DNA from: Promethearchaeota archaeon
GTDB lineage: Archaea; Asgardarchaeota; Lokiarchaeia; Sigynarchaeales; SOKP01
DNA: 20,848 bases
Direction of reading: 5' to 3'
NCBI GenBank assembly: GCA_019894735.1
Contig: JAGXOB010000030.1
Span: 3,170-24,017, forward strand
Shown: positions 8,585 to 18,161 of the stretch, one piece after another
How positions within the stretch are numbered: position 1 is the first letter of the stretch
Layout of the letters: every line of letters begins with the position of its first letter
Made by a program: the position numbers and the translations under genes
The notes under the pieces: model-generated
What the model saw: only the letters and a program-made list of their open reading frames with translations
What the model was told of the DNA's origin: nothing
Databases searched by the model: none

Positions 8585-9192
8585 ATGAAAAAAGAGTTAA
8601 AATTTTTCAAAAAACTATTTTCTTTAATTCCTGGAAGTATTTTTGGATTACTTTCTTTCGGGATAAGTTAATTTACTCATTTGCTCGGAGTATTATTATA
8701 TCCTAATTATGATATGACAACGATTACAATAAGTTTTTTAGGAGACGGATATGGGGGGTTAATCTACCGTGTTGGGTTAATTTTAACGGGGATTTTTGGT
8801 ATTCCTTTCTGCGTTTATATTACAAAATCCTTTGATAATGAAAATACGATTGAACCTATCAGAAAATTGGCATTATTAGGTTCAATAATTTATTGTATTT
8901 CTTTAATATTTGTTGGCTTTTTTGGGGAAGTAATGTTGTAGTTTCTATTATCCATGGTTTAAGCGCATTTTTATGCTGGGTTGATGGTTTGATGTTCATA
9001 AGTCTTTTTAGTATTCTGATGTTAAAAGATAAGAGATTTCCAAAATTAATTGCATTTTTTGGGTTTATAATTGCAGGAACTTTCTTAATACACTTGACAA
9101 TTCTCAGCTCAATAACACAATGGATTATGACTTTGTCAATAATGTTGTGGGTGTGGATTATTTCCTCTTATATGCTATACAAACAATTTTAG
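8585..9192 (+). pseudogene. DUF998-like multi-pass membrane protein, broken by a stop codon and a frameshift
   Basis: An ATG at 8585 opens a frame that reads as a membrane protein (LIPGSIFGLLSFGIS), hits an in-frame TAA at 8669-8671, then continues in the same frame (FTHLLGVLLYPNYD...) to a stop at 8939-8941. The remaining ~85 residues lie in the next frame (from about 8924 to the TAG at 9190). The switch falls at a T6-G4 run (8918-8927); one extra T would join the two frames as GFFWGSNVVVS. Repaired, the product would be ~202 residues with about six membrane helices. Its ISFLGDGYGG...GLILTGIFGI stretch resembles the DUF998 family, whose members are of similar length. Two separate lesions favour a real decayed gene, though the homopolymer one could be an assembly error. 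The gene follows the 8008-8544 gene closely. Confidence 0.7.
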
Positions 9193-9225
9193 CAAAGAGA
9201 ATAAAATTAAAAATAAAAGGATAGG

Positions 9226-9765
9226 TTAGAGTAATCCTGTAAATTTCATCATTTTCCGAGTTATAGACTCGAAAATCTCTTCTACTTTATCACCGGTTTT
9301 AGAAGAGCATTCAAAATATCCTTGTAAATTATATTTTTCAGATAGTTCATTAGCGTCCTCGGTTTCAACAGATCGCTTTTCTTGGAGATCTAATTTCCCT
9401 CCAACCATAATAATCGGTATTTCTAGTTCTTTATCTCTAACATTTTTCTCAAAGATAGAAAGCCAATCATCTACATTTTTTACGCTGGTATATCGAGTTA
9501 TATCAAACATAAATATCCCCCCATCAGCACCTTTAGCAAAACTAGGTAATAGTACTTTAAAGCGTTGTTCTCCCCCAAAATCCCAAATTCGGATAACTAT
9601 TTTTTTTCCATCTATTTCTAAGTCTTTCACATAAAAATCAGCACCAACAGTCATTTTTATGTCTTCGTCAAATATTTTTGTGAGATATCTATTGACAAGG
9701 GTAGTTTTTCCTACGCCACCATCTCCAAAAATGCATAATTTAAACGCACCTTCACGATCTGTCAT
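9226..9765 (-). CDS. Ras-like small GTPase with atypical G3 and G4 motifs
   Basis: The 179-residue protein is a single small GTPase domain of the Ras/Rab/Arf superfamily, a group expanded in Asgard archaea. The P-loop is GDGGVGKT (14-21). T39 in the segment before GADFYVKD fits switch I. G3 reads WDFGGEQRF (61-69), G4 is GGKLD (122-126) and G5 is CSSK (153-156). Compared with Ras, the Gln61 position is Glu66 (with Gln67 next to it), and Asn116 of NKxD is Gly123. Intrinsic hydrolysis and base recognition may therefore differ from textbook GTPases. There is no C-terminal Cys or CaaX box, so no prenyl anchor; it is expected to be cytosolic or held by partners. The start is ATG at 9763-9765. It is divergent from the acyl-CoA ligase gene across ~190 bp. 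No GAP, GEF or roadblock gene is adjacent. Confidence 0.93.
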   Translation of the reverse strand: MTDREGAFKLCIFGDGGVGKTTLVNRYLTKIFDEDIKMTVGADFYVKDLEIDGKKIVIRIWDFGGEQRFKVLLPSFAKGADGGIFMFDITRYTSVKNVDDWLSIFEKNVRDKELEIPIIMVGGKLDLQEKRSVETEDANELSEKYNLQGYFECSSKTGDKVEEIFESITRKMMKFTGLL

Positions 9766-11598: not shown

Positions 11599-11760
11599 TT
11601 GCGTAGAAACAAACTTAATAATTTTTATTTAAATATTATTTATCTTTATTTATCAGATAAAACTCACTATTTCTGTTAAAAATATTTGCGTATAACCAAT
11701 TTCTTTTATAAACAATTACCTATATTTTTTTTAATTAAAAATTTTTTCATTGTATTAATG

Positions 11761-12231
11761 ATGGAAGAAGCTATTTTTGGAGCCGGTTGTTTTTGGGGAG
11801 TTGAATCTAGATTTGAAAATGTTAAAGGTGTAATTGAAACTGAAGTTGGATATACTGGAGGGACTACAAAAAATCCAACCTATAAAGACATCTGTACTAA
11901 TAAAACAGGACATGCCGAGGTAGTTAAAGTTACCTTTGACGCTTCGATTGTATCTTACGATGAGTTATTGGAAATCTTTTGGGATATTCACAATCCTACT
12001 ACGCTTAATCGTCAAGGCTGGGACATTGGAACTCAATATAGATCTGCTGTGTTTTATAGTAATGAAGAACAAAGATTGTCTGCATTAAAATTAAAGGAAA
12101 GGTTAGATAAATCAGGAAAATATGAGAAACCAATTGTGACTGAAATTATTCCTGCTGAGAAGTATTATAAAGCGGAAGAATATCATCAAAAGTACAACGA
12201 AAAAAACAAAAGGTCAGTATTTTCTATCTAA
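11761..12231 (+). CDS. msrA: Peptide-methionine (S)-S-oxide reductase MsrA
   Basis: MsrA reduces methionine-S-sulfoxide in proteins or as the free amino acid. The protein begins almost directly with the active-site motif GAGCFWGVE, with catalytic Cys10. It continues through YTGG, TGHAEVVKV, the FWDIHNPT segment, GTQYRSAVF and the C-terminal EEYHQKY, all typical of the family. At 156 residues it is a minimal MsrA domain with no fused MsrB. The usual resolving Cys near the C-terminus is absent; the only other Cys (in DICTNKTGHAE) is the conserved internal one. Recycling may thus rely on thioredoxin or another thiol directly. The start is one of two adjacent ATGs (11758 or 11761). A longer frame back to a TTG at 11686 would add a non-conserved hydrophobic extension and is disfavoured. 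The gene converges on the small basic-protein gene 10 bp downstream. Confidence 0.95.
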   Translation: MEEAIFGAGCFWGVESRFENVKGVIETEVGYTGGTTKNPTYKDICTNKTGHAEVVKVTFDASIVSYDELLEIFWDIHNPTTLNRQGWDIGTQYRSAVFYSNEEQRLSALKLKERLDKSGKYEKPIVTEIIPAEKYYKAEEYHQKYNEKNKRSVFSI

Positions 12232-15517: not shown

Positions 15518-16999
15518 ATGAGTGAAAAGCAATATGATTTAGCGATTATTGGTGGAGGACCAGGGGGTTATCATGCGGCTATTAGGGCGGCTCAATACGG
15601 AGCAAAAGTCGCTTTAATTGAAAAAGACAAATTGGGGGGTACTTGTCTTAACTGGGGTTGTATCCCTACAAAAGCTTTATACGCGTCTGCTCATTTAATT
15701 GAAAAAATTAAAGAAGCTCATGAATTCGGAATAGAAATATCTGAGTATAATTTAGATTTTGCTAAAGCTGTCGAAAGAAAAAATAAAATAGTAGAAGAAT
15801 TAGTTGGTGGAATTGAGCAATTAGAGAAGGCTTGGAAAAATGATGTGTATAAAGGTCATGGCAAAATTATAGGGGGTGATATTAATAGTGGATTTGAGGT
15901 CTCGGTTGAAGGCGAAAATAATGCAGTAATTAAAGCAAAAAGAGTAATTATCGCAACAGGCTCCTCACCTGCTCTAATTCCCGCCTTTAATATTGATCAT
16001 GAAAGGATTTTAACAAGTGATGATATCTTACATCCTGATTTTAAAACTGTACCTAAGAGACTTTTAATCATTGGTGCAGGTGTTATTGGCTGTGAATTTG
16101 CTAATATTTTTACGAGATTTGGTAGTAAAGTAATTATACTTGAATATCTTCCCTCCGCAATTGCTACAGAAGAACCTATGATTGTAAAGGTTTTACTAAA
16201 AAAGTTTGAAGAATTGGGAATTGAACTCTATACTTCGCAAAATGTATTATCTGTAGAAAATACGGGTTCTGGAGTAAAGGCGACAACCTGTAGTGCATCC
16301 ATTCTACGAGATCACACAGATTCTGCCGAAAAATCTATCTATGAAGCTGATTTATGTCTTGTATCCATTGGACGAGCAAAAATATCAAAAGATCTTGGAT
16401 TAAAAACACTTGGTATAGAAACTGACCGTGACGCTATAAAAGTCAATAAAAATACATTAGAAACTTCTGTGAAAGGAATTTATGCAATTGGAGATGTCAC
16501 AGGAGGACTTATGCTTGCTCATGTAGCCAGTTATGAAGGTGATATCGCAGTTGCAAATGCTTTAGCCAGTATTGGAGATTTTCCTGTTAATGATATGAAA
16601 CCTGATTACACTGTAATTCCAGCAACAATTTTCACAACCCCAAATATAGGGTCTGTAGGCTATAGAAGAAAAGCTGCTAAAGATATGGGAATTGATGTCT
16701 TGATGGGTCAATTTCCTTATCAATCACTTGGTAAAGCTAAATGTATGGGTGAAGAAGAAGGTTTTATTATGGTGCTTGCCGATAAAAACACATATAAAAT
16801 CATTGGTGCTTCTTGTATTGGAGCTGAAGCACCCGAATTAATATCTGAAATTGCTCTAGCAATGCAACATGGATTAACAATCCATGATGTCGCAGAGACA
16901 GTCCATAGCCATCCTACAATATCTGAAATGGTGTTGGAAGGTTCTGAGTCTGTCGTAGGTAAAGCAATCCATAAAAAAGGACGTCCTATTCACGACTAA
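15518..16999 (+). CDS. lpdA: Dihydrolipoamide dehydrogenase (E3 / L-protein)
   Basis: This flavoenzyme reoxidises dihydrolipoamide on a carrier protein with NAD+. It serves 2-oxoacid dehydrogenases or the glycine cleavage system. The 493-residue chain has the FAD dinucleotide fold AIIGGGPGGYHAA at the N-terminus and the redox disulfide C43-LNWG-C48 in GGTCLNWGCIPTK. A second dinucleotide fold, IIGAGVIGCEFANIF, is followed by AIGDVTGGLMLAH. The C-terminal interface carries the catalytic dyad H465 and E470 in HSHPTISE. All active-site residues are present, which argues for lipoamide dehydrogenase rather than a bare NADH oxidase or mercuric reductase. The start is ATG at 15518 with no strong SD. 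No E1, E2 or glycine cleavage gene is in the window, so its partner is unknown. It is divergent from an Lrp regulator and is followed by a T-rich terminator. Confidence 0.93.
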   Translation: MSEKQYDLAIIGGGPGGYHAAIRAAQYGAKVALIEKDKLGGTCLNWGCIPTKALYASAHLIEKIKEAHEFGIEISEYNLDFAKAVERKNKIVEELVGGIEQLEKAWKNDVYKGHGKIIGGDINSGFEVSVEGENNAVIKAKRVIIATGSSPALIPAFNIDHERILTSDDILHPDFKTVPKRLLIIGAGVIGCEFANIFTRFGSKVIILEYLPSAIATEEPMIVKVLLKKFEELGIELYTSQNVLSVENTGSGVKATTCSASILRDHTDSAEKSIYEADLCLVSIGRAKISKDLGLKTLGIETDRDAIKVNKNTLETSVKGIYAIGDVTGGLMLAHVASYEGDIAVANALASIGDFPVNDMKPDYTVIPATIFTTPNIGSVGYRRKAAKDMGIDVLMGQFPYQSLGKAKCMGEEEGFIMVLADKNTYKIIGASCIGAEAPELISEIALAMQHGLTIHDVAETVHSHPTISEMVLEGSESVVGKAIHKKGRPIHD

Positions 17000-17039: not shown

Positions 17040-17363
17040 TTCCTTTGTTTCTATTCTTTTAAAATAAAACATTTCATAAGTAGAAGCTTCCTATTCATCA
17101 TTAACTCTGTTTTTAATTCTGATTTTGATCAAAAGCTAATATTATTTGAATGATTTCGACACTTTTAGTCGTTTTTCGTTATTAAAATCTAGTGTAATTT
17201 AACATAATATTCCATGGTTTTTCAATAAGTGACTACTATCAAAAATTATATATGATTATTATCGTCGTTAGGCGACTAATCCCATCCATCTTATGTCCAT
17301 TATGATGCATAGAAATAAGTGGGAACCGTCATGTTTATATGTGAAAATTTACATAATATTATT
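17040..17363 (+). other. Gene-free leader with dyad sequences upstream of the 17381 gene
   Basis: No reading frame is convincing here. Several dyads are present. TTAGTCG (17165-17171) pairs with CGACTAA (17273-17279). GTCG-TTAGG-CGAC (17264-17276) is a small hairpin. CCA-T-CTTAT (17286-17294) pairs with ATAAG-TGG (17315-17322) around a 20 nt loop, one base bulged. TTTATAT at about 17334-17340 is a candidate TATA box; initiation ~25 bp downstream would put the SD at the very start of the mRNA. In that case the dyads are DNA-level sites, not part of the leader RNA. Confidence 0.35.
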
Positions 17364-17373
17364 GAGGTGAGTA
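17363..17373 (+). promoter_or_regulatory. Strong ribosome binding site of the 17381 gene, target of the downstream hairpin loop
   Basis: TGAGGTGAGTA contains GAGGTGA, complementary to the archaeal 16S rRNA 3' end, with ~10 nt to the ATG at 17381. It is among the clearest SD motifs in the window; most genes here have weak or no SD. The same 11 bases are the exact reverse complement of 17729-17739 in the loop of the hairpin after the gene. Confidence 0.75.
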
Positions 17374-17380
17374 AGTTAAA

Positions 17381-17647
17381 ATGAATAGTTTTAGATCGAA
17401 AGAAAAAGCTGAAAAGAATTTTGAAACCATAAAGGACGCCGTAAAAGGTTTATATGAGGTTTTAGATCTTTCCCTAAGTGAAGATGATTTTTATTATGAA
17501 GTTGGTAAAGATAATATTACAGCAATTTATAAAAATCTCATTGAATTATTGTTAAACGAGTATGGGCTTCGACAACTCTTAAAGAAGATCCAAAACTCAG
17601 AAGTAGATTTAAATGTCGTGCTAAACGAATATTTGGCTAATATGTAA
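17381..17647 (+). CDS. Small helical protein of unknown function with strong SD
   Basis: The 88-residue protein is predicted to be all-helical, slightly acidic and soluble, with no Cys, signal peptide or membrane segment. Helices are visible as EKAEKNFETIKDAVKGLYEVL, NITAIYKNLIELLLNEYGLRQLLKKI and VDLNVVLNEYLAN, which could form a three-helix bundle. I cannot assign a family. The start is ATG at 17381, fixed by a strong GAGGTGA SD ten bases upstream. A T-rich tract (17649-17675) follows the stop, and then the 17704-17780 hairpin, whose loop can pair with the SD. This implies tight translational control, which makes the gene a candidate regulator, anti-toxin-like partner or stress protein. Those roles are speculation. 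Confidence 0.75.
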   Translation: MNSFRSKEKAEKNFETIKDAVKGLYEVLDLSLSEDDFYYEVGKDNITAIYKNLIELLLNEYGLRQLLKKIQNSEVDLNVVLNEYLANM

Positions 17648-17648
17648 G

Positions 17649-17675
17649 TTATTTTTCTTTTTTGGTTATTTTTTC
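17649..17675 (+). terminator. T-rich tract after the 17381 gene
   Basis: Three T runs (TTATTTTT, CTTTTTT, TTATTTTTT) fall within 27 bp directly after the stop codon and are typical of archaeal termination. If termination is complete here, the hairpin at 17704-17780 would not be on the same mRNA and would need its own promoter. If it is leaky, the hairpin lies in the 3' UTR. Confidence 0.45.
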
Positions 17676-17703
17676 AAATTACACATTTATTTTATTCCAA
17701 TAC

Positions 17704-17780
17704 CAGTTCCCTGACTTCGCCCGTTGAATACTCACCTCACTCACTGTCCAACCCTCGTTCAAGGAGATATCAGGGAACTG
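17704..17780 (+). ncRNA. Candidate structured RNA: 11-bp stem with an anti-SD apical loop
   Basis: CAGTTCCCTGA (17704-17714) and TCAGGGAACTG (17770-17780) are perfect inverted repeats. Inside them TTGAA (17724-17728) pairs with TTCAA (17758-17762), leaving a 29 nt apical loop (17729-17757). By eye the element is about half G+C, well above its flanks. The loop opens with TACTCACCTCA, an exact complement of the SD region 17363-17373, followed by CTCACTG. T-rich sequence (CCCTTTTACTTTTTCT) follows the right arm on the plus strand and would end a transcript. It lies between the 3' ends of two convergent genes. It could be a cis 3'-UTR element, a trans sRNA, a two-way terminator, or a small mobile palindrome. 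Strand is inferred from the T tract and the SD match. Confidence 0.5.
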
Positions 17781-17843
17781 ACCCTTTTACTTTTTCTCGG
17801 AATATTTAGACTTCACTGAAAAATAAAATTAATTGAAAAATTT

Positions 17844-18101
17844 TTACTCAGAACCTAAATGCTTGTCTAAATTAATGACTAATGGAACCTCTTTCTCATT
17901 CTTTCTAATAACGACTCTTAAAACTCCACCTTCAATTGTAGCGGACACAGGTTCAATCTTAGACACTTTTTCCTTTGTCTTTGATTCTAAACAAGTGTGT
18001 GCCTCGTTAAAAACATAACATTTAGTACAACAGAATCCTATGGGCAGGTATCCTACTATGGAACATTGGTCATATGCTTCACAATTACAATTATTACACA
18101 T
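17844..18101 (-). CDS. Small cysteine-rich protein, probable metal binder
   Basis: The 85-residue protein (ATG at 18099-18101; a GTG four codons upstream is possible) has eight Cys in its first 37 residues: C2, C5, C7, C13, C24, C25, C28 and C37. They lie in CNNCNCEAYDQC, FCCTKC and HTC, with H35 nearby. This is enough for two zinc or iron-sulfur sites. After a short Lys/Glu linker, the C-terminal half is a beta-rich domain without Cys (ATIEGGVLRVVIRKNEKEVPLVINL). I cannot name the family, but the separation into a metal knuckle and a small beta domain is clear. It converges on the 17381 gene, with the hairpin between them. Its upstream region has a 12-bp T/A-rich unit, TTATTTATTTTT, twice in tandem (18114-18137). 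Confidence 0.7.
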   Translation of the reverse strand: MCNNCNCEAYDQCSIVGYLPIGFCCTKCYVFNEAHTCLESKTKEKVSKIEPVSATIEGGVLRVVIRKNEKEVPLVINLDKHLGSE

Positions 18102-18161
18102 TTTTTTTATCACTTATTTATTTTTTATTTATTTTTTGTGAAATTTTTTTTTATTTTATAA

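Follow-up and report, generated by a model that had tools for sequence, protein, structure and literature searches.

A hairpin loop complementary to the Shine-Dalgarno leader of the small gene that it follows, at an insertion hotspot of Lokiarchaeia

In a group of Lokiarchaeia, a small gene encoding a protein of 88 amino acids (aa) is followed by a hairpin whose loop is complementary to the Shine-Dalgarno (SD) sequence in the leader of the same gene. We analyzed this arrangement in a stretch of 20,848 nt from a Promethearchaeota archaeon, hereafter the window, and in related genomes. Our preferred interpretation, to which we assign a probability of roughly 0.6, is that the loop pairs with the leader and thereby conceals the SD, so that less 88-aa protein is translated, either in cis, between the 5' and 3' UTRs, or in trans. 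The SD is strong and lies at the 5' end of a short leader, and the loop carries the complement of the SD and of bases flanking it. In an RNA made through the hairpin, loop and leader could form a helix of 11-14 bp, which would hide the SD and reduce translation, whether both lie on one mRNA or the loop comes from another hairpin copy acting in trans. If this is true, SD masking by a 3' element occurs in Asgard archaea, the closest prokaryotic relatives of eukaryotes, and the hairpin adds an RNA element with no match in Rfam and marks a Lokiarchaeial insertion hotspot where immune-type genes gather. Table 1 lists the features discussed.

Table 1. Features of the 88-aa gene, its hairpin and their surroundings (window positions)
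Feature	Position	Strand	Remarks
lpdA-like gene (dihydrolipoamide-dehydrogenase-like)	15518..16999	+	Pfam Pyr_redox_2 E 1.5e-62, Pyr_redox_dim
TATA-like box of 88-aa gene	17334..17343	+	TTTATATGTG in window; TTTATATATG in most relatives
Invariant leader TTGAGGTGAGTAAG with SD	17362..17375	+	17363-17373 complementary to hairpin loop
88-aa small protein gene	17381..17647	+	85 homologues found; function not assigned by domain search
T-rich tract, stop codon to hairpin	17651..17673	+	possible transcription terminator (from sequence)
Hairpin	17704..17780	+	outer stem 17704-17714/17770-17780; inner near 17720-17728/17758-17765
Loop segment TACTCACCTCA	17729..17739	+	complement of leader SD
T-rich stretch just past hairpin	17781..17796	+	cargo starts about here in other genomes
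89-aa gene	17844..18113	-	right border of insertion hotspot

The preliminary description of the window reported an exact reverse complementarity of 11 nt between loop and leader, and this is correct in sequence and in position, TACTCACCTCA in the loop matching TGAGGTGAGTA in the leader. It also called such a match unlikely by chance, which holds in part. The match is exact and, with up to one mismatch allowed, the 11-mer has just two sites in the window, against a mean of 0.28 in 100 shuffled sequences, four of which reached two; however, the usual SD/anti-SD core (GAGGTGA/TCACCTC) accounts for 7 of the 11 nt, so that an 11-nt match in a single window is less remote than its length suggests. 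The resemblance of the loop to the 16S anti-SD, likewise pointed out at that stage, is real and consists of these same 7 nt; the 3' end of the 16S gene reads GGATCACCTCCT in two relatives (L086 and L087). The G of GTGAGTA in the leader pairs with the loop and costs one pair with the 16S tail. The case for the putative leader-loop pairing is therefore one that rests on relatives, not on the match in a single window.

The window and nine genomes provided ten loci, aligned over 677 columns. All ten keep the leader TTGAGGTGAGTAAG and a hairpin starting 51-77 nt past the stop codon of the 88-aa gene, a spacing maintained although both flanks vary by kilobases. SD and loop are thus kept wherever gene and hairpin are present, and the situation that the preliminary description held to be damaging, relatives with gene and hairpin in which complementarity is lost, was not seen in the ten loci. 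The gene-proximal loop holds the exact TACTCACCTCA in nine of them; the tenth, L048, is imperfect, two changed positions giving one G.U pair and one end mismatch, and its far copy of the hairpin is exact. No invariant run of the alignment is longer than the 14 nt of the leader. With 8 nt, the loop core ACTCACCT, itself complementary to the invariant leader, is tied second with a run in the coding sequence, and a 7-nt run in the stem comes next. Average identity in the same alignment is 65% at third codon positions and 60% at four-fold sites. The probability that an 8-mer fits the leader at random is about 6e-5 by composition, and 98 of 200,000 8-mers drawn from the same loci did fit, estimates that disregard the favouring of SD-like sequence in leaders.

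On both sides the conserved blocks exceed the pairing, by the first T and AAG in the leader and by GAA in the loop, which indicates that other constraints act on leader and loop. We may hypothesize that the motif common to leader and loop functions at the DNA level: TTGAGGTGAGTA, located at the transcription start, would be an operator, the inverted copy in the hairpin a second site, and a regulator, perhaps the 88-aa protein itself, would repress by looping or co-binding. Invariance in excess of RNA complementarity fits such a scheme, as do the fixed distance between the motif and the TATA-like box and the fact that both sites are the same 11-mer when considered as double-stranded DNA. Yet an operator needs no hairpin, while 98.2% of outer-stem pair cells are preserved in the ten gene-proximal copies, whose folds beat nearly all shuffles; the variants found in L048 and L051:13342 include G.U-type changes, which speaks weakly in the same direction. 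We regard a DNA operator as unlikely.

Homologues of the 88-aa protein occur in 51 of the 83 genomes of the class (E 1e-10). Those bearing names are mostly Loki- or Promethearchaeota MAGs, with few other labels, and most of the 85 homologues are known from protein sequence alone; the 18 loci that we compared as DNA are all labelled Lokiarchaeota or Lokiarchaeia. Nine of these 18 (L001-L009, 74-92% identity) have both the leader TTGAGGTGAGTAAG and the hairpin. In the other nine (L010-L018, 51-67% identity), inspection by eye of 80-100 nt upstream and 330 nt downstream revealed neither. A model of the hairpin gave strong matches solely in the nine genomes, of 83 in the class, under stricter filters that may lose weak matches; marginal matches in G012 and G015 (E 0.005 and 0.077) were left out of the hairpin counts. 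In a set of 21 hairpin-less loci (L065-L085, duplicates with L010-L018 being counted once), GTGATTA is present in nine leaders and GTGAGTA in none, and the longest exact complement of the leader within 400 nt past the stop codon measures 6-10 nt, mostly A/T. A single gain in one clade is the probable origin of both leader and hairpin.

Database searches with the 88-aa protein returned no confident Pfam domain (best HisK_N, E 0.008, below the cut-off), no match in NCBIfam and no useful match among PDB sequences (best E 0.15). Viral contigs contained no match to two exact patterns or to the 88-aa protein family, and blastn produced no match in plasmids and phages.

The hairpin is predicted to fold into an outer stem of 11 bp and a short inner stem that closes a loop of about 29 nt. 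Its energy is -26.2 kcal/mol (z -4.2), which none of 200 shuffles equalled, and z is -4.34 when flanks are included. Over the loci z ranges from -3.7 to -5.6, and each gene-proximal copy does better than nearly all its own shuffles. Within this fold the 11 nt of the loop are mostly unpaired, with a mean probability of 0.83 in the window and of 0.51-0.95 over the ten loci, four of which (L049, L050, L051 and L054) have a partly occluded loop (0.51-0.70). In nested folds of whole transcripts the leader is mostly paired elsewhere (unpaired 0.01-0.49), and the 461-nt region spanning 17340-17800 shows no more structure than expected by chance (z -1.43). Over the ten loci the stem retains pairing in 95.7% of 188 cells, a value that shuffles also reach. 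Wobble pairs were considered as a guide to the strand of the hairpin; one count of the outer stem gave 7 G.U and 3 unpaired cells on the + strand and another gave 5 and 2, numbers too small to decide. Searched at the gathering score, Rfam has 0 matches in the window.

No compensatory covariation was found over the ten loci, neither in the stem nor between leader and loop, both of which are nearly invariant. The proposal from which we started, a 5'-3' UTR switch or a trans-acting RNA, emerges with a conserved complementarity in 10/10 loci but with no compensatory change to go with it. We retain the 5'-3' UTR switch as the best reading and consider the trans-acting RNA as well. Absence of covariation would also be expected if leader and loop were kept for unrelated reasons, the former as a strong SD and the latter as part of a terminator or protein-binding hairpin, their likeness stemming from the limited variety of SD/anti-SD sequences. 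The share of the SD core in the match (7/11 nt) and the T-rich stretch directly after the hairpin agree with this idea. Against it, GTA also belongs to the match, the 11-mer is almost private to the locus, and a terminator requires no conserved loop; we find such a coincidence improbable.

How private the 11-mer is can be seen from its distribution. The nine genomes (about 36 Mb) contain 32 sites of TGAGGTGAGTA: nine in leaders, that of the 88-aa gene in each of the 9/9 genomes, 19 in hairpins and four inside ORFs. One further site was found in G010, a genome without the hairpin. The five other sites of the 11-mer (13 genomes) all fall within ORFs of at least 60 aa, and none lies 20 nt or less upstream of an ORF start (ORFs of at least 50 aa). 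A general titration of SD sequences by the loop, which had also been suggested, is not favoured, as the conserved match passes beyond the SD core into GTA and 0/5 of the other sites are just upstream of an ORF. Within its own locus, the 88-aa leader is the best partner of the loop in 10/10 cases, 144 other ATG-ORF leaders being weaker, with a small margin in the window (-18.6 kcal/mol, against -18.3 for the best other leader). Duplex energy alone is not decisive, since between 0 and 102 of 1000 shuffled loops pair as well with the leader, the highest number being that of L048.

The TATA-like box, from which we infer the promoter of the 88-aa gene, begins 28 nt before the leader motif in nine of ten loci and 27 or 26 nt before it in L051, a fixed spacing that suggests a leader motif near the 5' end of the predicted mRNA. 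Such a position opens the possibility that pairing is real and protects or activates, by shielding the 5' end from nucleases, for which the hbs mRNA of B. subtilis offers a precedent in the account of a review (PMC7821165). The pairing, however, covers the whole SD, so that translation of a paired mRNA would need release, and we hold protection to be very improbable. The T-rich tract that precedes the hairpin is also present in relatives (by eye), most weakly in L054, and it counts against co-transcription, for the mRNA may end before the hairpin. No conserved TATA-like block that could serve a separate hairpin RNA was seen by eye between stop codon and hairpin in the alignment of ten loci. 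Our preferred reading, SD masking by the loop, supposes that leader and loop would be present together on RNA and would pair in the cell, with repression instead of protection as the outcome.

Gene and hairpin belong to a conserved frame composed of a gene that we take to be lpdA, the 88-aa gene, the hairpin, the 89-aa gene on the other strand, and then genes that are presumably hdrC- and hdrB-like. The gene-hairpin unit marks a Lokiarchaeial insertion hotspot, with lpdA as left border and the 89-aa gene as right border. Between the hairpin and the 89-aa gene there are 57 nt in the window (17787-17843) and 52 nt in L047, which are unoccupied versions of the hotspot, and 1690-10496 nt in six other loci; in L054 and L055 the 89-aa gene is absent from the same stretch. 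On the other side, lpdA and the 88-aa gene are 274-387 nt apart in five loci and 1434-7825 nt apart in five. Insertions are located upstream of the promoter or just past the hairpin, and in 0/10 loci between gene and hairpin, which we read as selection keeping the two together, the hairpin belonging to the gene. The mutual orientation of gene and hairpin is identical in 10/10 loci, and DNA inversion between the inverted motifs was rejected on this ground. Elsewhere in the window, at 9226-9765, lies a gene for a Ras-family small GTPase (Pfam Ras E 1.5e-44).

The hairpin is a repeat, a property absent from the preliminary description because a single window cannot show repeats flanking cargo. 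Each of the nine genomes has 1-5 copies. From 50 matches at E <=1 we kept 25 copies, 10 gene-proximal and 15 others; 18 matches were opposite-strand shadows and seven were weak or outside the pattern (including L048:3896, E 0.0037), and a half-hairpin near 10089 in L046 lies outside the copy count. Duplicate hairpins are found at the far sides of cargo. In filled loci, direct repeats end about 20 nt or less past the hairpin; they contain the hairpin, to which several add a portion of the 3' end of the gene; an example is L046, where 8971-9196 corresponds to 11602-11827 (226 bp, 97%). In L055, four copies on one strand, spaced by 1.3-2.6 kb and separated by genes, form an array of cassettes.

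The 25 copies around cargo, together with direct repeats of the L046 type, could mean that the hairpin is mainly a recombination (attachment) site for cargo, in which case recombination would account for the conserved loop, and the leader match would be coincidental or a relic. Two far copies, L050:10750 and L053:10061, have lost the 5' arm and keep the loop and 3' side, which this reading accommodates; the far copy L049:13162 is more decayed. Nevertheless, gene-proximal copies are intact where far copies decay (at most one 5'-arm mismatch in 10/10 versus 10/15), lpdA 3' ends are duplicated in like manner around inserts that do not involve this hairpin, and an invariant, matching leader is left unexplained. 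Tyrosine recombinases (PF00589, a profile not specific for IntI) are present in eight of the nine genomes, yet island contigs have 0 matches. We consider a role mainly in attachment quite unlikely; cargo insertion by homologous recombination is possible. CALINs, for their part, have by nature no neighbouring integrase.

Two other origins of the hairpin were tried and rejected. The attC sites of integrons carry an R-box consensus pair (RYYYAAC ... GTTRRRY), which is absent from 25/25 hairpin copies on both strands. For a CRISPR-repeat origin of the stem, CAGTTCCCTGA has 29 sites in the nine genomes, 24 of them in hairpin copies or a remnant and five scattered.

Of the 15 non-proximal copies, which lie beside cargo, 11 retain the exact 11-mer in the loop, and some of the 15 have no 5' arm. 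Hairpin copies might then work as RNA sensors of occupancy or activity, transcription of the island, including its defence genes, tuning the 88-aa protein in trans; we put this forward as a speculative and rather unlikely extension of SD masking.

Variable cargo is present in L046, L048-L053 and L055, and part of it is of defence type. It includes a short-Argonaute-like protein (PADLOC pAgo E 5.6e-63), a SIR2-like/TPR protein, an ankyrin-TIR protein, a GNAT protein, and a DprA-family protein beside a protein matching PADLOC ShosT (E 4.2e-7) and PsyrT (E 3.7e-7). LRR proteins were recognized by Pfam in L049 and L051, and those of L052 and L055 by their resemblance to the former. Further cargo is of no defence type (DUF401, an OsmC domain, a beta-helix-like protein), and many cargo ORFs have no family match. 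The pAgo-like gene (471 aa) at L051:9438-12854 has same-strand neighbours of 435 and 233 aa with no Pfam match, possibly forming a pAgo operon. At L055:3275-5408, the DprA-family gene (Pfam E 4e-54) adjoins a protein with weak PRTase, ShosT and PsyrT matches, a possible ShosTA-like pair. ORFs of 1335 and 848 aa with weak or no family matches follow lpdA in L049:3080-7087 and L050:5720-8266. The 3' end of lpdA is duplicated around inserts in L049 (2881-3095 and 7605-7820), L050 (5611-5684 and 8481-8554) and L055 (14192-16761); a second neighbouring gene end thus acts as insertion point, in this case with no copy of this hairpin.

SD masking by a 3' element is already known in bacteria. In the icaR mRNA of S. 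aureus, initiation is blocked when a 3' UTR motif pairs with the SD, which also attracts RNase III; the pairing was demonstrated by experiment, and both cis and trans action are considered (PMC3868564). As in icaR, the SD of a gene has its complement in a motif past the gene's own stop codon; unlike the bacterial 7-nt UCCCCUG as presented in that article, the element described here is archaeal, spans at least 11 nt, sits in a hairpin loop, is multicopy in an insertion hotspot and is known from sequence alone (PMC3868564). For hbs, the review cited above describes a 14-nt 5'-3' UTR pairing that protects the mRNA from RNase Y (PMC7821165): the pairing of two UTRs and its length are similar, whereas hbs is bacterial and its pairing is reported as protective. 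Masking of a ribosome-binding site by an archaeal RNA through base pairing is exemplified by sRNA162 of Methanosarcina mazei, which, in the sections consulted, is a separate sRNA acting through a single-stranded linker, with no hairpin behind the target gene (PMC3510493). Integron cassette arrays, or CALINs, are reported to be enriched in Asgard archaea (PMC9668308). Like our hairpins, their repeats are more alike within than between genomes and separate gene cassettes; unlike what that report describes in the parts consulted, the R-box is absent here, the array is tied to one host gene, and island contigs have no tyrosine recombinase match (PMC9668308). A limited full-text search of the open-licence literature produced no case of archaeal 5'-3' UTR pairing, and a hotspot with immune-type genes of this kind is not described in the portions consulted of the Asgard defence and Argonaute literature. 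Within the literature searched, then, what is new is the occurrence in archaea, the presentation in a hairpin loop and the association with an insertion hotspot.
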